In this document: one piece after another, positions 12,301 through 22,257 of the stretch
How the letters are laid out: the number at the start of each line of letters is the position of its first letter
Position numbering within the stretch: the first letter of the stretch is position 1
NCBI GenBank assembly: GCA_949775045.1
Contig: OX459096.1
Coordinates: forward strand, 30,083,475-30,147,474
Direction: 5' to 3'
From: Metridium senile
Lineage: Eukaryota > Cnidaria > Anthozoa > Actiniaria > Metridiidae
Length of the DNA: 64,000 nt
Position numbers and translations under genes: made by a program
Notes under the pieces: model-generated
What the model was told of the DNA's origin: nothing
What the model saw: only the letters and a program-made list of their open reading frames with translations
Database searches by the model: none

Positions 12301-15300
12301 ACTAAAAGCATAATTAACAAAGAACATAAATTCTAACCTTCGTGATAAATCGTTGCCATTTCTTTGCTTTGATGACCATTTTCACTTTCCCTTGGAAAAA
12401 TGGCAACAATATCTTCTGCACTCCAGAATTCTGAAATTTTCGTATTTTCTTGATAATTGACCAAGGGTTCTCCTCGAACAACCAGGGACAATGTTTTTGA
12501 GGAAATACCGGTTAGCGATGAGAGTTTTTTCTTCAGATCTCGAAGTTCTAAGTCTTTCTCGACTAATATTTCTAGCTCAGTTTCCTCTCCATCTCCGTGT
12601 TTTATAATTTTCATTTTTTTTCTTAAATTCGACTCTAGCTCTGACGACTGAGCACACATAGTTTCCTTGCGGAGTTTGGTTGTGTCTAACCTTCTAACTG
12701 GTTTCTCTCCAGCTTTTTTGTTTTTGCCCGCCTTTGGCAGCTTCTTTGCTCTCGCAGGAATCTCGTAACTCTCAGACTCGTCCGAGCATCCAGGTTCTGA
12801 AATCCAAAGAAATATGCTAATAGTTACATGTATGCGCATTAATTGTATTAAGGTAAAATAATAACAATAAGCACTGAAAAATAACTATTCATGTCACAAT
12901 TATGTTACCATTTATTTTTTCCACGTCACTTTCATCTTTACCATGTCTTAATGAACTGCTGGAACTGGATTTCTTTTGTTTCTTTCTTGGCGGGCCACTG
13001 AGATTCCAACTGTCATTGAGGGCAAAGAGATCATCGGTGTCATCCTGGTCCATAAGTTTTGCGCTTTTTTTTCGTGCTCTACCTTCTTTGTTAGTTACTT
13101 CAGCTATTTCGCGATTTCGCCTAATCTTGTCCATAAAATCGGCACATGCTTTTCTGGTTCCCTTGTGCAGACTAATTGCAGTAAAGTACGCTTCACTTAC
13201 TTCACCCTCTGAGTTCAGAACGTTCCACTTTACTTCTACTACGTTCCCCGCGGCATTATCATCTAACCGTACTCGGTGTTCCTGTACAATATGCGGCCCC
13301 CTTGACTTTGGATCTGCTTCGTTAGGAAACTCAACAACGTAAAAATCAGCCATTTTTGACAGTCAATGTAGAATTAAGGAAGAATAAGGTCGTTAGTTCG
13401 CTTCAAGAAATAGGTTCACTAGAATGAATCTCCCGCTCAATTTTGTTAGCTATCTTGTTACCGTATGAAATCGATTTGTGATTGGCTCAGTATGATTTGG
13501 AAAGAATTGAAAAAATGAACCAATATCCCTTTCATCGGTATGAACATATATCTTGTTACTCTTTGATGATTTTTGGCGAATTTGATACACTAGTAAAATA
13601 ATTGAAACAGCCTCACATGAGTTTATACTTGATTTATCCTTTTAGCTATTGAATGTGCTTCACATCTGAATATGGAATATGACAAGGAACTAATGCAAAG
13701 TTGCGCCCAAGATGAAAGTAGTTCCGACTCAGACTCCAGCCTACAACCTTTAACTAAAGACAACGCCACCGATTCTTCATCTTCAGCTAGTGGCACTTGT
13801 CGGAAATCAAGACAGTCACTTTATTATCAACGTAAAACACAAAGCAGAGAGAAAAGAAGCTATAAACCTTATAACGAACAACATTATCCATCACGGCAGT
13901 TAAGACATTATCATAGAAATAGATTAAGCACACAGAAGGAAAATAACTCGGAAACTACCGGCTGTCGTTATGAAAGCGATATTGATAGCGAACTTCTTAG
14001 TGCAGAAGAAAAGTCGTTATTGAGTGATGATACTGATATTAGTGATTCAGAGACTACTGAGACTTCAGAAAGTTCAAGTGAGGATTCATTTGACGACGAA
14101 ATGGTTGACAGCAATGGACATGTGGAAAACGAAAGTAATGCTAATGAGGATGTTGTACTCCATATGCCTTGTAAACAAGTTCCTCTGTATGACGGTAGCA
14201 TGATTTCACGACTTTTTGCATGTGTACTGGTTGTCTCATTTGTACTGCAACACAACTTGAGTAAAGCCGCATGGGCAGACTTGATTCGACTTTTGTCTGT
14301 ATTAATTGGAAAACAATTTGAAGAGGTCTTTCGGTCAGTGTACAAAATGAAACTCTACCTCAAAGATTGCTTTGGAACAAAGGACCCCGTTAAAGTCTTG
14401 TATTGTTCAAACTGTTTTATTCAAGTATTTGATAAGCATTGCTCAAAACTAGAATGTCAAGGACAGCCTCTCAGTGGATTTTTAGACCTGAATTTGGAGG
14501 AACGTCTCAAAGAGCTTTTTCGAGATGCAGAATTCTGCAAGCTTCTTAAAAAAGGAAAAGAGAACATTAAGCGGACAGTGAATAGAACAATTCACGACAT
14601 TTACCACGGGTTGGACTATAAGAATTTTCTTTATCCAGGTGGATTTTTAACAAAAGATTTTAATGTTTCTCTCACAATCAATACAGATGGCGTCAATAAG
14701 TATTCTTCTTCTAGTGCTGGCCACTTATGGCCAGTTTATGTGATGATCAACGAACTTCCAAAAGAATACAGATTTAACAAAAAATATATAATTCCAGCGT
14801 ACATATACTGTGATAAGAAGGAGCCAAACATGATGACCTTTCTCAACCCTTTGGTCGAAAAACTGAATACTCTTCATACCAAAGGCTTTAGAGTTGAAGA
14901 TAGTGCGGCAGGTGATATCAATGTAAAGTGTTTGCTTTTTATAGTATCTGCTGATCTACCTGCGCGTGCAGATTTAATGAATATGAAAAGATTTAATGGA
15001 AAATGTGGCTGTCACTTGTGCAAGCAAGAAGGGGATCCTTATGGTTATAACAACCTCCATAGATCTTGGCCATACAAAGAAGGGATTGCGTTACGATCTC
15101 ACGACGATCAGAAGGATTTTGCCTCAAATGCCACCCAAGAGAATGCCGTAATGGGAGTTAAAGGTCATTCAGTCTTTGCTAAACTTAACTGTAGATTCGA
15201 CTTGGTTAGATCATTTGCTGTGGACTGGATGCATTGCGTGCCTTTGGGAGTTGTCAAGTACTTAATGAACTTAATGACATGTAATAAGTGGAAAGGAAGT

Positions 15301-18300
15301 CACTTTTATATTGGTACACAGTTGTCATCCATGTCAACACGTCTAGTATCAATAAGACCGCCTGAAAATATCGGACGACTGCCACGAACTTTAGGAGAAA
15401 TAAAACACTGGAAAGCAACTGAATTAAAAAATTGGTTGCTACATTTCTCTGTTCCTATATTACAAAATACACTTAACCCGTTATGTCATCTCCATTGGTG
15501 TCTTCTTTCAGGTGCAGTAGGAATTCTATGCTCAGATTCCATTCCATCCCATTCTATTCCTGTGGCAGAAGAAATGTTACGTGACTTTGTCATAATGATG
15601 GAAATATTATATGGTGAAACTAAATGTACAATGAATGTTCATTTACTTACTCATATGGGATATTATGTGTTACGTCGTGGTCCATTGTGGGCGTATAGCT
15701 GTTTTGCATTTGAAAGTATTAATGCATTTATGAAAATATTTGTACACGGGACACATCACGCTATGGAACAGATAGCATGTGCACTTGGTCTAACATATGG
15801 AATACCTGAGTTTATTCAGCAAGCTTGTAAAGATAGCGGAACACCAAAAGATGCATTATCCCTTTTAAGAAAACTGAATGGTCAGAACAAAAGCTCAAGA
15901 AAAGCAATCAAAGTAGAAGGCGGAAACTTCCTAGGAACAGACATTCTTAAGTCAGAAGGTATCACAATTGACAACAACTTTAAAACAAAGATAAGAGTCT
16001 TCATGGCGCTAAATGAAGGTCTTAAAGACTACATATTGCAAGCATTTGCAAGATTTGTAGACATGAACGGTCAGAAAATTGACTCAATGGCTTGGAATAA
16101 AACGAAAAAAACTGACTCTACGGTTATCGAATTTGTGGACAGAAATGGGGAAATATATTTTGGAAGAATAAAGTTTTTTCTGAAAGCAGGAAATAAAGGA
16201 ATTTGTGTATGCCATCTACTTGACATTGTTGACTCTGAGTCAAATCCATTTTTAATCAGTTCCGACAAATGTATGCAGTCAATACAGGCACAAAATATCC
16301 AAATGAATGAAAATCATAGCACGCTTATTGGTAAAATCATTCAAAAATATAATGGTAAAAATGTTGTAAAGCATCAAACTTGTGTTCTGCCACGTCTCGG
16401 TAAAGTAATTTTAATTAACATTCATCAAATTATTCGGAAGTGTGTGTTCATTGACATTTCATCAGAATACTGGATAGTTTCTAGGTTTCCAAATATTATT
16501 GAACATAATTAATGTGCTAAAGAGCATTAAAACATAACCATCTTACAATTTACATATGTAAATAATATTTCTACTTCTAGTATTTTTTTTTTTGTATTAA
16601 ATCACATTTTAACTCAATTTACAGTGCAAATTTGTAAAAGAATAAAGCTATTTTTTTACAAGTGTAAATCAGGAGACTAACTAATGATCACGGGAGTGAT
16701 CACACCAGAACTCATGATCACGGGAGTGATCACATTTCAAGGCGTGATCACAGCATTGATCACAGGCGTGATAACGGGGTCACGCTTTTAGGGGTGATGA
16801 GAGGCGTGATCACGGGCGTGAAGTGTGATCACAGTGTGATCACAAAATATTTGTACTGGGGTTAAGACACACAAGAGGACATATAAAGGACAATTAATAT
16901 GTGTTAGAGTGAAACAAGGCCTGACTGTACCAATAAAATACAAAGAGTAAAATAAGTTACTACTGGACAGAGTCATTCTGGATGTATTCAAATATCTGAC
17001 ACTAAAAACGTCTGTGCAGGAGACTAGATGAATATACCTTTCTTTTTTTCCTACCTGTCCTACCAGGCATTCAAACGGATTAGTTTGCTTCATTTATTAT
17101 GTTTTGTCAACTTGTTATTTGTCATAAGCTTTATTGTATCACTGACAGTAATTCCAAACAGACTGAAAAAAGGTATTTTGCATTAGCCTCTAAACTTGTA
17201 CAGGATACTGAGTTTTAAATGAAGTATAACAAACTGAAAGTTCGAAAAAATATCATCCATTCCTAGTATTGATGTTAACGTAATTAATTTACAGTCTGGT
17301 AAATGTATTCCATAATTGTTTAAAATGATTTCTAGCACCTTCCTAAATATTACTTGTGATTGTAACGTCCAGGTCTAAGTTACAGTAACAGCTACAATCA
17401 CGGACAATATTGTTTGGGACAACATTAACAATTCGAATAAAAACGTTACCCTTCATCATTTTTAGCCCTCCCCTCCCCCCTCCATTCAATGTTGACCGTT
17501 CATGAGTTACATGGGTCATTGGTAGGCATTCCTTGGTCAAATCAACATTGAGATAGGGGGGGAGGGGGAGGATATGATGAAAAATGAACAATTATATGTG
17601 AAAAACCACTAATAACCTGCTGTGTCCCAATATTTATGTCCATGATTGTCTTAAAATCGATTGTATGAAAATCGTCATGAAAACCGCAGTAAATCGTACC
17701 AAAAATGCCACGAATGTTAAATAAACTGTATGTCGTCATGATTTACATAACTAATTAATAAAAATTTATAATAATATGTGGCTATTTTTTTATTTTTGAA
17801 TTGATTGATAACACAGGAAGCCCAAAATAAATTATGGCTTTACAAAGTATTTGCATAATTAAAGTGTAATTTGACGCCAAATTCTTACAATTTTATGTAA
17901 TCAGACCTGAAGTAAGTATTACAATGGCTTCTTCAAACACTCGGCATCAGTCACTTGTCTATTTGATTACGTATAGTCGTGCAGACTTAGATAAAGTGTC
18001 GTCAAGGGAAACTTTTGCGATGATTATTGCAAATGCATTCCAACAAGTGGCGCAAGTTGAAGTGAATCATTGGGTTGTTTGTAAAGAAAGCCATGCTGAA
18101 ACCTCCGAGTCAGAGAACTCAACACATTACCACATGGCATTGAAGCTGAACAAGAGATCAAGGTGGTCAAGGGTTAGGCAGTATATACAGAATCATCACG
18201 ACATTAGAGTCAATTTCAGTTGTAATCACAACACATACTACAGCGCCCACCAGTATGTCATTAAGGAGGATAAAGAATTTGCCAAGTCAGCAGATCATCC

Positions 18301-21300
18301 CATCTTAACAGATCCACCCTCAACAGAGCAAGCTATAACAGCCAACAGAAAAAGATCTACGAAAAATAAAGGCGATAAGAAAAAGGCAAAACGCTATTCG
18401 ACATTTGACGTTGTTCAAATCATACAAGAACAAAACATCAAAACACGTTTAGAACTCGTTAATTTAGCTGTAGTTCAAAAGAATGAAGGAAAAACACAAC
18501 TAGCCCAATTCATTGCCAATAGAGGTGCCAAAGTGGTGAATGAGGCCTTAGAGTTGGCCAAGGAATTCGTAGAAGCCCCAATGCAGATGCAACGCCTTAA
18601 GATGAGTCGCATCGACATTCTCAATGAAGCATATGGGGCAAGCTGTGTAACTGATTGTAATGGCCAGTGGCTTGAAATGGCACTTACACTCATGTCACAG
18701 AACGAGTTGTCTGTGTCAGCATTTTGTAGTGGTATTTTCAAGGCGCTTAAGGACGGACGCGGGAAATATAGGAACATTTATGTATACGGTCCGGCTAACA
18801 CGGGGAAAACCTTTATCATATCTCCTTTAAAGAACATCTACAAAACCTTCACCAACCCCGCTACCGGTACATTTGCATGGCTTGGTGTTGAAGATGCTGA
18901 AGTGGTAGTGTTGAACGACTTCCGCTGGCATCCCTCTGTGATTGCTTGGGGAGATTTACTTCAGTTGTTAGAGGGCGATACTGTCCATTTACCTGTGCCC
19001 AAAAACTTTGGTGTCAAGGATGTGGAATTCAACAAAAATACGCCATTCTTTGCTACCGCCGATGCCCCTATGGTCCTAGTTAAAGGAGGGTCATTAGATT
19101 CTGCAAATACCCAGATGATGCAGGTTAGGTGGCGTACATTTAATTTTTGGAAACAAATACCGCAGGATAAACAGAAATCCCTTTCACCTTGTCAACATTG
19201 CTTTGCAAAATTCGTACTTGATTATAAAGATATCGATAACTTATTCTAAACACCGTATTTACTCGAATAAGCACTGCTTTGGAATGAGCGCCACTCTCGT
19301 ATAATGACCGCATTTTAACGCAATAATGTTACTCTATAACAGCATTAAAAGGAAACTTTTATCAAAAGCGTTATTTTTCAGTTGAAAATAATTATATTTC
19401 ACCGCTCGTCCATTAAATTATCTCCACCGGATATTCGTAGTTCTGATTAAGAAGGGGACTGTGTAAACGATAATAGTTTAATAAGCGCCGCGGCGCTTAT
19501 TCGAGGAAATAAGCTATACATTACTCCACTCAATACTCCATCATGTTAACTGATAATTATAACACAATAGGATTGTTCATTTTAATATATGGATCTTAAT
19601 TAGCTTTATATAAGACTATGAAGTCGTCTTCTACGGTTTAGTCCCCTTATCAACAGAAAATGTTGACATATTGTATTTAAACGCACATTACTCCATATGA
19701 ATGTTAAGTAAATCTATTAGACTATCAACTTTTATATAGATCACAGTGGAGTAATGATGATTATCATATTATACGTAACATGCCATGAACATTATTAGAC
19801 GTACATGCTCTAGAAAGTGTACATGACTGATTTGTCGTAGAAGACAAGTATAATTTATCAAAATTATACTGATTTATATTGTTGTTTAACACATAAGGTC
19901 GTGTGGAGTAGTATGGAGTATTGTAACTTAATATGCTGATCGGCCTATTGTTCATGATACTTGATATAATAATTATCCTTGATTGTTTGTAATTATAAAA
20001 CATGGTTTATATTATAATATATTGTACTAGTGATCATTATCATTAAATAAATACCTGAATCTTGTAGAATATTACTGTTTATTTAGAGATAGTAATAAAC
20101 ATTCTATTGACAAATAAATGATAGATTATGGTTACATTTGAATGTGTTCAATAAGTATAGGCACCCGGTATAGTATTTTGTTCGTCCTCCAGATAAAATT
20201 AATGATCAATAATTAAGTATAGGTATTCAGTATTTTGTTCGTCCTCCACAGAGACTGATAATGTTTTCTACGCGCTTTGGTAAGCTCGCAATTGTTTTAT
20301 CAATTAAATCACTGTCAATACTTTGAAAGCATTTCAATACCCGTTCTTTAAAGTTGTCAAATGTTTCCATCGTCAAATTCAAAGTTATAGCTTCTTGTTC
20401 GAGTCTCTTTTTAACTATATGGAAAACATTTTCTGGAGGATTTAGGTCCTGTGTGCGGCTGGGGATGCGATGCAATGTCGCCTCAATGTCACTTAATGCA
20501 CTCATTGCTTTACAGCTTGTTTGACTTGGGTCGTTGTCCATTACAAATAGTCTTTGTCCCATTACTTTCGGGCCTGCCTTTCCAAACGTTAAATTAAAAT
20601 GCGTCCGAATAAAGTTGGCGAAGAACTCACCGTTCAACTTCTCATATGGTTGGCATAATACAACGCCTTTGCCATATGCAACGGCCACCATAATGTGAAG
20701 CCTTCGTCCACCAGCCAGCTCTTTTGTTCCTCTTGCCGTTATTGATAACCCCTCACCCTTTTTCCTCCAAACTCGAGATTTCGGTCTACAGGCTTCATTC
20801 TTGGGGTTGTACTTATGTATAAAGGATACTCCATCCAAGTAGAAAGCTATGTGATGAGTGTAAAACGTAGGATTGTCCTTCAATAAACTCCGCATCTTCT
20901 TTGCATACTTTAAGCGCAATTCCTTGTCCTTGTCACTTAACAGTCCCTTTTTTCGAGATTGAAGGAAGTGAAACCCCCATTTGTTAAGGTATCTTGTAAA
21001 TGTCCTTCGATGCACCAATGTCGGATCTATTCCCGCCTCTCTAACTAACGACATGACGGTTAGATTAACATCTTTCTTTCTCATTCTTGTGAGTGTTCTC
21101 AGCATTTCTCTCTTGTCTCTTTCATTGATTCGAGGTTTCCGTCCCTTATTTCTATGCACAATTGCCTTTTCTTTACATTCACTTCGAAGGTAGTTTTGAC
21201 GATACTTCCATATTCGATGTGCCGACGATTTGGAAATGTTACACTTTTTTGCGATAATACGGAATGAATAACGTTCTTTCTCGCGTAACAGAATAGCATA

Positions 21301-22257
21301 CGCTACTTTTGTTGGCTTAAGTTTTGCCACCATGTCTGATTGTGCAAGAAAAATGAAATTTTGCAGTCTATGACATAATAATTACGTTTACACAGGAATC
21401 CCGTCAGTCCGCGAGCATATGAAAAACACAAAATTAACCCAATCAACCACAAAAAATGTACAAAATAACATGTATACTGAAATGATTCATTATCTTGCAT
21501 TGTCCGTAATTTATAATAATATATACATTGACGAAACCTGATATTATCACACTTTCTAATGAATTACTTGTACAAGACAATCACGGACAATATTGTTTGG
21601 GACAACATTAACAATTCGAATAAAAACGTTACCCTTCATCATTTTTAGCCCTCCCCTCCCCCCTCCATTCAATGTTGACCGTTCATGAGTTACATGGGTC
21701 ATTGGTAGGCATTCCTTGGTCAAATCAACATTGAGATAGGGGGGGAGGGGGAGGATATGATGAAAAATGAACAATTATATGTGAAAAACCACTAATAACC
21801 TGCTGTGTCCCAATATTTATGTCCATGATTGTAGTTCTGAGAGAGCTCTAGCTACAACAAGATTAACATACTTTGTAATAGCTTGTTTCTTTTGTCTTGG
21901 TCAGGCGCAATCATTGTGTATGCCTCTCTTCTAGAATTATTTGGAAAATGAAAATTAGCTGGCTTCAGGCATCAAAGCACTGTAAACTTTATAATCATGA
22001 TAAAAATTCAGCTGAATAATTTTCTTGATTGTGATAACAATCATAAATACATTCAATTCAGAATAAAGCTATTTGGTGTACCTTTGATACTTCTCAGTTT
22101 CAGGTTCTTGAGAAGAAGGTTCCGTTGTCTCTTCTCTTTCCAATCGTCCATCTTGGTTTATGTTTGCTTGACTACTAGGGTTTGAGTTCATATCTCTCCG
22201 TCTAGACCCGCTTGCTTGGCTCGTAAACGAGCTTTTTGTAGTGTACGAACGACTCAT
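3333..22257 (-). CDS. EPSTI1: EPSTI1-like coiled-coil protein with C-terminal CUE-like segment, 7 coding exons
   Basis: Minus-strand exons: 22257-22082, 21930-21872, 8260-8088, 5721-5638, 5177-5128, 4089-4007 and 3478-3333. They join in one frame to 771 nt (256 aa plus stop), every junction phase agreeing. All introns are GT-AG except intron 6, which has a GC donor (AAG|GCATGT). Exon 2 encodes AYTMIAP, as in vertebrate EPSTI1 (AYTLIAP). Exon 3 has a K-P-x-x-V-G-G segment followed by a Q-rich run, matching the RRLGG/QKQQ region. Exons 4-5 are a charged Lys/Glu coiled coil, exon 6 is His/Gln-rich, and exon 7 starts acidic and ends in a CUE/UBA-like helix set (LRELCRIYP ... VRELL). The molecular function of the family is poorly defined; human EPSTI1 is interferon-responsive. 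Intron 2 spans 13.6 kb because of two large transposons. The C-terminal CUE-like part is my reading, not something I know for the family. Confidence 0.8.
3600..3770. repeat. G-rich / poly-C low-complexity tract
   Basis: G-run sequence (3614-3625, 3689-3693) followed by a run of about 22 C at 3738-3760. It lies in intron 6 of the EPSTI1-like gene and is low-complexity only; the 66-codon frame through it is not a gene. Confidence 0.7.
4451..4986. mobile_element. MITE with CRE-like TIR, hosting a second MITE
   Basis: The left end reads CAATTATCCTATTTCACTAT then GACGTCACA; the right end is its near-perfect reverse complement (TGACGTCATAGTGAAATAGG then GCAATT). A further inverted match (CAGTGGGGGA / TCCCCCACTG) lies just inside. 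It sits in intron 5 of the EPSTI1-like gene. A separate foldback element interrupts it at 4632-4834. Confidence 0.75.
4632..4834. mobile_element. Foldback MITE nested in the 4451-4986 element
   Basis: Long inverted arms begin AACAGGTTCC and include ATTTAAATCTGTACTT, ATGCAAATT, GTTGATGTGTG, GTGTGCTAAACACACAG and ATCAACCAATCAGAG. They meet around 4721-4733. The right arm carries a short internal duplication of GGGAAAGTACAGATTTAAAT. The arms would form a very long hairpin. Confidence 0.75.
5224..5515. mobile_element. MITE with TAGCCTCCTCCGCAGGC inverted ends
   Basis: About 70 bp at the left (TAGCCTCCTCCGCAGGCA, then CTTCCTTTG, then GGGTTTCCTGTGTTAT) recurs inverted at the right end. It lies in intron 4 of the EPSTI1-like gene. 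The three overlapping open frames here are by-products of the inverted repeat. Confidence 0.78.
5778..7257. mobile_element. 1.48-kb non-autonomous element flanked by TTAA
   Basis: The left terminus AGTACTTATGAAGTCAA and right terminus TTGACTTCATAAGCACT are inverted, and similarity extends about 55 bp (GGGACATATTTT, CAATTCTAGACATCGT). TTAA lies immediately outside each end (5774-5777 and 7258-7261), the target-site duplication expected of piggyBac-superfamily insertion. The inside is AT-rich, includes two similar stretches near 6190-6290 and 6410-6500 (GCAATAAACT ... AAAACTTACATTTTTCAAAC), and has no transposase frame. Confidence 0.78.
7388..7600. repeat. Simple repeats with interstitial telomere-like TTAGGG/TTTAGG block
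   Basis: A TGTAT microsatellite (about 7388-7410) is followed by a TGT tract, an AGT/ACT tract with many TAGTACTAG palindromes (about 7483-7535), then about 65 bp of mixed GGGTTA and GGTTTA units (7536-7600). TTAGGG is the usual metazoan telomere unit. The block is short and degenerate. Confidence 0.75.
7665..7760 (+). repeat. tRNA-like SINE head
   Basis: An A-box-like TGGTATAGTGG and, about 40 bp on, a B-box-like GGTTCTATTCC. The would-be acceptor stems do not pair well and the B box deviates from GGTTCGANTCC, so I read it as a tRNA-derived SINE or tRNA pseudogene rather than a working tRNA. Confidence 0.5.
8720..9040. repeat. AAGGAGTTTT-repeat degenerate element
   Basis: AAGGAGTTTT(C/T)AAGGAGTTT recurs near 8761, 8932 and 9009, with a CAGGGTTCGTGC motif at about 8730 that could be a hAT-type terminus. 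No matching right end was found. It abuts the left end of the CMC element. Confidence 0.35.
9091..9325. repeat. Left subterminal GTGATCAC cluster (13 copies)
   Basis: Thirteen exact GTGATCAC palindromes, usually flanked by C or T on the left and G or A on the right (CGTGATCACG core), in about 235 bp. The 64-codon frame across it is an artefact of the repeat. Confidence 0.9.
9691..13353 (-). CDS. Transposon-borne BEN-domain protein with ubiquitin-like segment, 4 exons
   Basis: Minus-strand exons 13353-12909, 12796-12338, 11364-11305 and 10346-9691 splice at GT-AG sites with matching phases into 1620 nt (539 aa plus stop). Exon 1 starts MADFYVVEF and ends in a Lys/Ser-rich stretch (K-K-Q-K-K) that could be a nuclear signal. 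Exon 2 holds a basic region, then about 75 residues (from KKMKIIKHG to AIFPRE) whose alternating pattern and VVRGEPL segment suggest a ubiquitin-like beta-grasp fold; this is inference. Exon 4 starts with a short coiled coil, has CxxC in FLKCRNCMK, a Ser/Thr/Pro linker, and a C-terminal BEN domain (GVYVSAELLEKI, LKLFELVFSRRE, LDANRLTAVFEHHL, IDSKCRMVRNNR). BEN domains bind DNA, some at palindromes, so the GTGATCAC clusters are a natural candidate target. It is divergent from the transposase across 318 bp. Confidence 0.8.
11454..11545 (+). repeat. GACGTTTCGAGCTTTAGCCC repeat, single arm
   Basis: TAGGTAATATAATAAAATTT ... ACGTTTCGAGCTTTAGCCCT matches one arm of the palindromes at 28957-29124 and 33100-33267. 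The following AACACCGACGCAGCCTATTA also matches sequence just outside those palindromes in reverse complement. It lies in intron 2 of the BEN-domain gene. Confidence 0.7.
11577..11745. mobile_element. Small MITE in the BEN-gene intron
   Basis: The left end ATATCTTATTAACCGAGCGC and the right end CGAGCAAGC ... TTAATAAGATAT are imperfectly inverted. GGAAGTTATGGACC / GGTTCCATAACTTCC and GCCGTAC / GTACGGC pair further in. It is a secondary insertion into the CMC element. Confidence 0.55.
13354..13671. promoter_or_regulatory. Divergent promoter interval of the CMC element
   Basis: A 318-bp gap between the ATG of the BEN-domain gene (minus) and the ATG of the transposase (plus). No exact GTGATCAC is seen here. 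TTTTAG just before CTATTGAATG at about 13641-13653 could be a splice acceptor, so an untranslated transposase exon upstream is possible. Confidence 0.45.
13672..16512 (+). CDS. CMC/EnSpm (tnp2-like) DDE transposase
   Basis: A 946-aa uninterrupted frame, long enough to be intact. The first ~165 residues are Ser/Asp/Glu-rich and look disordered. The core has the tnp2 (Transposase_21) signature: TDG at Asp339 followed by S-S-S-A-G-H-L-W-P-V and NELPKEYR; a zinc-binding CGCHLC near residue 445; VDWMHCVPLG with Asp518; HLLTHMGYYVLRRGPLWAYS; and FESINAFMK with Glu681. Asp339, Asp518 and Glu681 are my candidate catalytic triad. The C-terminal ~200 residues are unassigned. It would cut at the TIRs of its own element. 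The right GTGATCAC cluster begins about 170 bp after the stop. Activity is plausible but unproven. Confidence 0.85.
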   Translation: MEYDKELMQSCAQDESSSDSDSSLQPLTKDNATDSSSSASGTCRKSRQSLYYQRKTQSREKRSYKPYNEQHYPSRQLRHYHRNRLSTQKENNSETTGCRYESDIDSELLSAEEKSLLSDDTDISDSETTETSESSSEDSFDDEMVDSNGHVENESNANEDVVLHMPCKQVPLYDGSMISRLFACVLVVSFVLQHNLSKAAWADLIRLLSVLIGKQFEEVFRSVYKMKLYLKDCFGTKDPVKVLYCSNCFIQVFDKHCSKLECQGQPLSGFLDLNLEERLKELFRDAEFCKLLKKGKENIKRTVNRTIHDIYHGLDYKNFLYPGGFLTKDFNVSLTINTDGVNKYSSSSAGHLWPVYVMINELPKEYRFNKKYIIPAYIYCDKKEPNMMTFLNPLVEKLNTLHTKGFRVEDSAAGDINVKCLLFIVSADLPARADLMNMKRFNGKCGCHLCKQEGDPYGYNNLHRSWPYKEGIALRSHDDQKDFASNATQENAVMGVKGHSVFAKLNCRFDLVRSFAVDWMHCVPLGVVKYLMNLMTCNKWKGSHFYIGTQLSSMSTRLVSIRPPENIGRLPRTLGEIKHWKATELKNWLLHFSVPILQNTLNPLCHLHWCLLSGAVGILCSDSIPSHSIPVAEEMLRDFVIMMEILYGETKCTMNVHLLTHMGYYVLRRGPLWAYSCFAFESINAFMKIFVHGTHHAMEQIACALGLTYGIPEFIQQACKDSGTPKDALSLLRKLNGQNKSSRKAIKVEGGNFLGTDILKSEGITIDNNFKTKIRVFMALNEGLKDYILQAFARFVDMNGQKIDSMAWNKTKKTDSTVIEFVDRNGEIYFGRIKFFLKAGNKGICVCHLLDIVDSESNPFLISSDKCMQSIQAQNIQMNENHSTLIGKIIQKYNGKNVVKHQTCVLPRLGKVILINIHQIIRKCVFIDISSEYWIVSRFPNIIEHN
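16684..16845. repeat. Right subterminal GTGATCAC cluster
   Basis: Six exact GTGATCAC and three TGATCAC variants in about 160 bp, several inside GCGTGATCACGG or GGAGTGATCACA. It is less dense than the left cluster. Confidence 0.88.
16860..17392. other. Host intron sequence between the two large elements
   Basis: Roughly 530 bp of AT-rich intron of the EPSTI1-like gene. No element or gene is recognised. Confidence 0.45.
17395..17648 (+). repeat. Left 254-bp terminal repeat (MITE-like, with TIRs)
   Basis: It starts CAATCACGGACAATATTG and ends TTTATGTCCATGATTG; the first ~27 bp are inverted at the end. It contains the C-rich/G-rich pair CCCTCCCCTCCCCCCTCCAT and GGGGGGGAGGGGGAGGATAT. No difference from the right copy was seen by eye. 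Confidence 0.88.
17924..19249 (+). CDS. HUH-endonuclease Rep with superfamily 3 helicase
   Basis: A 441-aa intact frame starting ATGGCTTCT. The N-terminal domain has LITYSRAD (motif I-like), THYHMAL with the metal-binding pair His68/His70 (HUH motif), and YVIK with Tyr111 and Lys114 (YxxK nicking motif). After a basic linker comes an SF3 helicase: Walker A GPANTGKTF (Lys295), Walker B-type VVVLNDFRW (Asp332) and motif C near NTPFFATAD. This two-domain order is that of CRESS-DNA virus and parvovirus-type Rep proteins, which nick and unwind DNA in rolling-circle or rolling-hairpin replication. No capsid-like gene is present. I recall similar multi-copy genes in anthozoan genomes, unverified. 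It could be an endogenised viral gene or a transposon gene. Confidence 0.85.
   Translation: MASSNTRHQSLVYLITYSRADLDKVSSRETFAMIIANAFQQVAQVEVNHWVVCKESHAETSESENSTHYHMALKLNKRSRWSRVRQYIQNHHDIRVNFSCNHNTYYSAHQYVIKEDKEFAKSADHPILTDPPSTEQAITANRKRSTKNKGDKKKAKRYSTFDVVQIIQEQNIKTRLELVNLAVVQKNEGKTQLAQFIANRGAKVVNEALELAKEFVEAPMQMQRLKMSRIDILNEAYGASCVTDCNGQWLEMALTLMSQNELSVSAFCSGIFKALKDGRGKYRNIYVYGPANTGKTFIISPLKNIYKTFTNPATGTFAWLGVEDAEVVVLNDFRWHPSVIAWGDLLQLLEGDTVHLPVPKNFGVKDVEFNKNTPFFATADAPMVLVKGGSLDSANTQMMQVRWRTFNFWKQIPQDKQKSLSPCQHCFAKFVLDYKDIDNLF
19252..19516. mobile_element. MITE with TATTTACTCGAATAAGC inverted ends
   Basis: The left end ACCGTATTTACTCGAATAAGC and right end GCTTATTCGAGGAAATAAGCT are inverted over about 20 bp, and a GCGCC / GGCGC pair lies inside. 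About 265 bp, starting right after the Rep stop codon; it is probably a later insertion into the composite. Confidence 0.65.
19522..19920. repeat. Mirror-arranged TACTCCA / TGGAGTA array between Rep and transposase
   Basis: TACTCCA occurs at 19522, 19534 and 19689, and its reverse complement TGGAGTA ends at 19753, 19910 and 19920. All three pairs centre on about 19721. Flanking bases are partly shared (CATTACTCCA, CAATACTCCA). The pair GTCTTCTACG (19626) / CGTAGAAGAC (19836) is also inverted, centred slightly off. The arms are otherwise weakly similar. It could be the decayed palindrome of another element or a set of Rep-binding iterons. Confidence 0.5.
20150..20260. repeat. Short tandem duplication at the 3' end of the Tc1-like gene
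   Basis: AAGTATAGG followed by AGTATTTTGTTCGTCCTCCA occurs near 20154 and again near 20215, the second covering the transposase stop codon. A local duplication of the gene's 3' edge. Confidence 0.6.
20227..21333 (-). CDS. Tc1/mariner-type DD34E transposase
   Basis: A 368-aa intact frame. The N-terminus is a helix-turn-helix (FRIIAKKCNISKSSAHRIW), followed by a GRKPR AT-hook-like motif and a second DNA-binding unit. The catalytic core shows YLDG (Asp167), FVMDND (Asp266) and NPPENVF (Glu301); 34 residues separate the last two, the DD34E spacing. IPSRTQDLNPPEN is the classic Tc1-family block. It should catalyse cut-and-paste insertion at TA, consistent with the TA outside the composite. The gene is convergent with Rep; its start is 244 bp from the right 254-bp repeat. 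That it acts on those repeats is inference. Confidence 0.9.
   Translation of the reverse strand: MVAKLKPTKVAYAILLREKERYSFRIIAKKCNISKSSAHRIWKYRQNYLRSECKEKAIVHRNKGRKPRINERDKREMLRTLTRMRKKDVNLTVMSLVREAGIDPTLVHRRTFTRYLNKWGFHFLQSRKKGLLSDKDKELRLKYAKKMRSLLKDNPTFYTHHIAFYLDGVSFIHKYNPKNEACRPKSRVWRKKGEGLSITARGTKELAGGRRLHIMVAVAYGKGVVLCQPYEKLNGEFFANFIRTHFNLTFGKAGPKVMGQRLFVMDNDPSQTSCKAMSALSDIEATLHRIPSRTQDLNPPENVFHIVKKRLEQEAITLNLTMETFDNFKERVLKCFQSIDSDLIDKTIASLPKRVENIISLCGGRTKY
21578..21831 (+). repeat. Right 254-bp terminal repeat
   Basis: The same length, orientation and, by eye, the same sequence as 17395-17648. It is followed directly by TA. Its inner flank AAGA is the complement of the left copy's inner flank TCTT. 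Confidence 0.88.

Follow-up and report, generated by a model that had tools for sequence, protein, structure and literature searches.

The 64-kb window of the Metridium senile genome analyzed here, that is, the whole stretch of DNA under study, contains at positions 17394-21832 a unit U flanked by two direct copies of a repeat R. The R copies (17394-17649 and 21577-21832) are 256 nt each, are 100% identical, and recur with a period of 4183, while the 3,927 nt of U carry a gene for an HUH/SF3 Rep and one for a DD34E Tc1-type transposase, which are convergent and have open frames. TA is present at the outer ends of R-U-R only (17393-17394 and 21832-21833); the inner joints, at which TACAAG precedes R and CTTAAA follows it, are without TA. 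R is a near-palindrome, scoring 120 against its own reverse complement (300 shuffles: mean -1.6, SD 16.7, maximum 54), and folded as single-stranded DNA it gave a z of -4.32, with 0 of 200 shuffles equally good. Each R copy carries two inverted ends, and the termini of the element are direct repeats. The initial annotation had described identical 254-bp direct repeats with their own inverted ends, TA only outside the pair, and two intact convergent genes (HUH-Rep/SF3 and DD34E). This description was borne out, with catalytic motifs located in both proteins, except that a length of 254 bp omits the A and T of the TA sites. The features are as follows.

17393..17394, no strand: left TA target site, whose A is the first base of R
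17394..17649, plus strand: left R, a 256-nt near-palindromic direct repeat with inverted ends, which is proposed to serve as transposon end and as origin of replication
17463-17495 and 17542-17574, no strand: inner inverted arms of the left R, C-rich and G-rich, respectively
17650..21576, plus strand: unit U, 3,927 nt, starting with CTTAAA and ending with CTTGTACAAG, inner joints without TA
17924..19249, plus strand: Rep, HUH endonuclease plus SF3 helicase, 441 aa
19076..19079, no strand: CTAG within the rep gene of U, the site that holds an identical R in the copy on contig C8
19256-19277 and 19490-19511, no strand: 22-nt inverted repeat (86%) between the convergent genes
20227..21333, minus strand: Tc1-type DD34E transposase, 368 aa
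21577..21832, plus strand: right R, same as left R
21832..21833, no strand: right TA target site, whose T is the last base of R

Short direct repeats were observed at the 3' end of the transposase gene (20152-20248; 20 nt at 20172 and 20229, and at 20152/20214). About 0.9 kb to the left of R-U-R lies an open 946-aa frame (13672-16512, plus strand) with a match to Transposase_21 (tnp2; E 8.9e-14) and weakly to DUF1258, which is probably another DNA transposon. No further matches to Rep or the transposase were found in the 64-kb window.

In the transposase, the catalytic residues are D167, D266, and E301, and 34 residues separate D266 from E301 (DD34E). It matched DDE_3 above the cut-off (E 2.9e-12), HTH_Tnp_Tc3_2 just below it (30.2 bits against 31.5), and Sleeping Beauty with an E of 4.5e-9. 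Like Tc1/mariner (IS630) elements such as Sleeping Beauty, the element combines Tc1-type DDE domains and DD34E spacing with TA duplication, seen in 24/24 tabulated insertions, and with short excision footprints (ACATT and ACATGT where R is missing). Unlike them, it lacks a single pair of terminal inverted repeats: its end is the whole 256-nt palindromic unit in direct orientation, and it carries a Rep gene, forms head-to-tail arrays, and enters CTAG-centered targets. Because its ends are direct repeats, we file it, by its transposase, as a composite variant of Tc1/mariner and not as a standard member.

Rep carries the motifs expected of an HUH/SF3 initiator, namely HYH at 68, a catalytic tyrosine (Y111-xx-K114), Walker A (GPANTGKT) at 289, VVVLND at 327, and ATAD at 377. 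Its match to Pfam Parvo_NS1 (E 1.6e-4) was just above the family cut-off, and the HUH part resembled SIRV1 ORF119 (E 1.4e-4, with a profile match of only 0.056). The best structural match was AAV2 Rep68, and the papillomavirus E1 fold was matched as well; these are domain-level similarities (TM 0.25-0.46 over the 50 rows shown, with a model pTM of 0.60). Rep shares with parvovirus NS1/Rep and other HUH-SF3 initiators the order of endonuclease followed by helicase, but it is only 12-18% identical to them in the structural alignments shown, and its element has a DDE transposase as partner and no capsid gene. R ends 274 nt before rep. No origin motif was found.

Copies were searched for in the assembly of 389 Mb (169 contigs). 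The full 4,441 bp occurred at about 100% identity in at least 10 full-length places (10 of 1,119 candidates were scored). The first 30 nt of R, used as a pattern, recovered 90 left ends, 84 of them exact (reversed-pattern control, 0), and the U-R joint occurred 53 times, 52 exactly; three two-mismatch R matches (C1:19493891, C2:45441942, and C2:48973835) were left unread. We identified 17 single units, each bounded by TA and set in flanks of its own, or 16 if L006 and L007, which have common flanks, are counted once. Left and right R were identical in most units read. Among 31 units compared, a set confined to stretches of less than 4,600 bases between R ends, eight of the 30 others were letter-identical to that of the window (nine of 31 with the window's own). 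The other 4,183-nt units differed by at most 5 substitutions, and the two L055 units by 10-11 substitutions plus gaps. Full-length frames were retained in 29/31 units for Rep and likewise in 29/31 for the transposase. The element family is young in this genome, and R-U-R has moved as a whole unit, in multiple copies and recently.

The earlier proposal that the 4.4-kb unit moved as a whole, as a composite transposon partnered with a Rep module, is supported by the TA-bounded single units and letter-identical copies. It had suggested looking for additional copies that carry the two genes between TA sites, and these proved to be numerous in the same assembly. One correction is that this unit is not alone in moving, since a series of the form R(UR)n does. 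A chance arrangement or assembly join was rejected because ten full-length copies at about 100% identity were scored in the same assembly, beside arrays and 17 single units at different flanks. The same copies rule out two independent MITE insertions. R does occur alone, as that reading would have it, but the 17 single units share one structure at different flanks and their inner joints lack TA, so that two MITEs or an assembly artefact can be given practically no weight.

Some copies depart from the common form. L006 and L007 (G000:C11:7828933 and 7813861) lie 15 kb apart with common flanks and the same two substitutions, and are likely a segmental duplication. L024 (G000:C4:6377021) is an older copy, identical at 90.7% over R and at 92.8% over the first 1.3 kb of U, which shows that the lineage is no recent arrival in this genome. 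L015 (G000:C2:31494055-31494592) consists of R, the last 64 nt of U, and R, with TA outside, and is an internally deleted, non-autonomous derivative.

The insertion target was ANC-TA-GNT across 24 tabulated insertions, with T and A at the center in 24/24, C in 21/24, G in 23/24, the outer A in 18/24, and the outer T in 19/24. The table leaves out L007 (same flanks as L006), L055, L070, L067, L048, L015, L024, and L025, the last because it has no TA on the left. R ends that depart from the pattern were those of L025 (no T before R), L035 and L044 (R followed by TG), and L065 (T for the first A).

The copies form a series R(UR)n that runs from solo R through single units to head-to-tail arrays with n = 2, 3, 3, 4, and 9. 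In the five clean arrays, the ends of R recur at exact period, T precedes the first R and A follows the last one, and the inner joints are without TA. They are:

n = 2: L055, contig C7, period 4,178, TA at both outer ends
n = 3, one inner R lost: L039+L071+L018, C3, TA at both outer ends
n = 3: L060+L061, C14, period 4,182, TA at both outer ends
n = 4: L063+L062, C152, TA at both outer ends
n = 9: L059+L056, C14, 38 kb, TA at both outer ends

These arrays were read in one genome, and the number of units within the assembly may be wrong. Three multi-unit regions were complex (C6, with its left end unresolved; C7, 12.62-12.69 Mb; and C8, 1.15-1.16 Mb). The C7 region (G000:C7:12620390-12685642) comprises about 65 kb of R and U units with inverted parts, two successive 12,049-bp spacings, and missing inner R.

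Solo repeats with TA on each side, another form anticipated in the initial annotation, were also present. One is young and free (L019, 99.6%, no U within 1.5 kb), and four are older (L031, L032, L069, and L070; 90.7-96% identical to present R); a further older solo, L025 (91%), is without TA on the left. The conserved ends of older R copies are partly ascertainment, because the search for copies used the first 30 nt. Among young R copies, one free and one nested solo stand against five clean and three complex arrays.

Tc1 excision classically leaves a short footprint of end nucleotides. Within arrays, five joints from which R is missing still carry 5-6 nucleotides of its ends or a variant of equal length: ACATT in L071, ACATGT in L073-L075 (which may go back to one duplicated event), and a third form in L076. 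With their flanks, GA-CAT-TC and GA-CATG-TC, they look like Tc1 footprints, which argues that R itself is a mobile unit. Because R ends without flanking TA were apparently cut here, the transposase could also act on R ends in circles or concatemers. The CTAG within one U on contig C8, in inverted orientation, is occupied by an identical R flanked by TA on either side. Together with the neighboring R, this arrangement is best explained by an insertion of R that would have been followed by an inversion between inverted R copies.

The series could have arisen in several ways. We consider it the most probable reading, though well short of certain, that this is a composite element of Tc1/mariner type carrying a replication module, in which R serves as the transposon end, Rep multiplies R plus U, and the transposase integrates the product. 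The 256-nt R would be the smallest mobile unit, both of its inverted ends being recognized by the Tc1-type transposase, and the stretch mobilized would start with the left end of one R and close with the right end either of that R or of a different one (R, R-U-R, R-U-R-U-R, and so on). Once excised, such a stretch would enter an ANC-TA-GNT site and thereby acquire TA at its outer ends only. Rep would nick at or near the palindromic R, 274 nt before its gene, and drive replication of R plus U into circles or head-to-tail concatemers, with the transposase serving as their integrase. Of these parts, the one that is well supported is that the transposase integrates the element at TA and uses R as the end. 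That Rep is the source of the extra copies, from an origin in R and by way of circles or concatemers, is suggested by its intact catalytic motifs and its fold matches to AAV2 Rep68 and papillomavirus E1, by the position of the palindromic R, which ends 274 nt ahead of the gene, and by the excess of arrays over young solos.

The n = 9 array argues against a simple concatemer. Among the 4/9 units compared, it holds two unit types, one of which equals a single unit on another contig, and a concatemer from a single circle without later exchange would not give such a mixture. Arrays can also form and lengthen by unequal crossing-over. It is accordingly conceivable, if rather less probable than not, that the element is a composite Tc1 element whose arrays and solos all come from chromosomal unequal crossing-over between R or U copies, Rep being a passenger or serving another step such as opening the R ends. 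The varying array lengths and the heterogeneity of the n = 9 array fit this, as do the 12,049-bp higher-order spacing and inverted parts at C7 12.62-12.69 Mb, such as local recombination gives, and Kojima and Bao favor this route for KolobokP in the excerpts of their paper (PMC9587614). However, exchange between R copies yields one solo per new dimer, yet young solos are fewer than arrays, and it is hard to see why a passenger should have retained its motifs and diversified in parallel with the transposase, as Rep has.

An improbable variant would have R plus U circles, made by recombination or by Rep, re-enter resident R copies by homologous recombination, with new sites reached only by cut-and-paste of TA-flanked composites (a translocatable-unit route). 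The inner joints read in the clean arrays are indeed all the same U-R-U joint, and solo R copies are available as landing sites. Landing in older solos should give hybrid outer repeats, because these are only 90.7-96% identical to present R, but left and right R are identical in most units read.

Relatives in protein searches numbered 372 for Rep and 283 for the transposase (120 of each listed), with Porites, Oculina, Exaiptasia, and Dendronephthya among the named hosts of listed relatives of both. Pairs of the two genes elsewhere were matched through the equal size of their contigs. Nine contig sizes recurred between the 120 matches listed for Rep and the 120 listed for the transposase (200 shifted controls: mean 1.55, maximum 5). 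For these nine pairs, the window's included, distance matrices were congruent (Mantel r 0.78, 0/20,000 permutations), and the trees agree in supported groups. Judged from these comparisons, Rep and the transposase have co-diversified, and their partnership appears old because distances among the nine pairs reach 0.52. The other 111/120 listed Rep matches had no equal-size partner, for which short contigs and the lists of 120 could be an explanation, though not a proven one.

Among the listed matches, a single database contig carries the window's exact Rep and transposase; its length is 4,213 bases, or 4,183 + 30. We read the 30-base excess as what a k = 31 assembly yields for a circle or a collapsed tandem repeat. 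The route through a circle by way of R that had been suggested from LTR-like ends thus gains some indirect support from the head-to-tail arrays and from this contig, which a collapsed tandem repeat would explain equally well.

No relatives of Rep were found in IMG/VR, prokaryote genome contigs, or plasmids, none of the transposase in IMG/VR or phages, and PHROGs gave nothing for either protein. The resemblance of the Rep fold to parvovirus and papillomavirus initiators, together with TA-bounded concatemers, might suggest an endogenised single-stranded DNA virus or plasmid that integrates through a captured transposase. We regard this as very improbable, since no relative of either protein was found in IMG/VR, the two genes diversified together, and U has no capsid-sized ORF, its ORFs of at least 80 aa being rep, the transposase, and one antisense ORF inside rep.

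The nearest published architecture, as far as the excerpts go, is that of KolobokP (Kojima and Bao 2022, PMC9587614). There, an internal region lies between long terminal direct repeats (LTDR, about 450 or 660 bp) with short inverted ends, and solos, single units, and (LTDR-INT)n-LTDR multimers occur with target-site duplications, those around solos being 3-5 bp in the tabulated genomes. LTDRs are sometimes absent within arrays, autonomous oyster units measure about 4.0-4.7 kb, and in Tables 2 and 3 solos equal or exceed multimers. The seven phyla of KolobokP do not include Cnidaria. The element described here shares the LTDR-INT-LTDR layout with solos and multimers, the occasional loss of the repeat inside arrays, and the pairing of a transposase with a second DNA-cutting protein. 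In contrast, KolobokP, as excerpted, combines a Kolobok-superfamily transposase with a His-Me finger homing endonuclease, whereas a Tc1-type transposase and an HUH/SF3 Rep are found here, and its solos are at least as frequent as multimers, whereas young solos here are rarer than arrays. The same architecture built from a different transposase and nuclease suggests convergence on one design, in which a transposase and a further enzyme that cuts DNA go with a short mobile repeat at the ends. Teratorn (PMC10175614), a 180-kb fusion of piggyBac and a herpesvirus genome, likewise joins a DNA transposon to a viral replication system, but it has terminal inverted repeats, and direct-repeat ends go unmentioned in the excerpt. 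No Tc1/mariner element with a Rep was found in the open-licence literature, Repbase entries being outside this scope. The impression that no described element has this gene pair and end structure therefore stands, within the open-licence literature, for the gene pair but not for the end structure, for which KolobokP, as excerpted, is a precedent. On these sources, the element is Tc1-type by its transposase and resembles KolobokP in its architecture, and it carries a Rep module for which no counterpart was found in the open-licence literature.

Returning to the composite element with its own replication module, its fullest form is one on which we are evenly divided: a two-engine animal element, in which an HUH/SF3 replicon and a Tc1-type transposase would share a palindromic 256-nt origin and end, in a partnership older than the divergence of its lineages to about half their residues. 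The replicon would make circles or concatemers, and the transposase would paste R(UR)n, up to tens of kilobases, as one block. Cut-and-paste transposons rely on the host for copy gain. If this reading is true, a Tc1-type transposase with its own replication initiator would couple replication directly with integration, the placement of one to nine units as a block at a single TA site would be a natural source of long tandem arrays, and the element would link viral-type replicons and Tc1 transposons.
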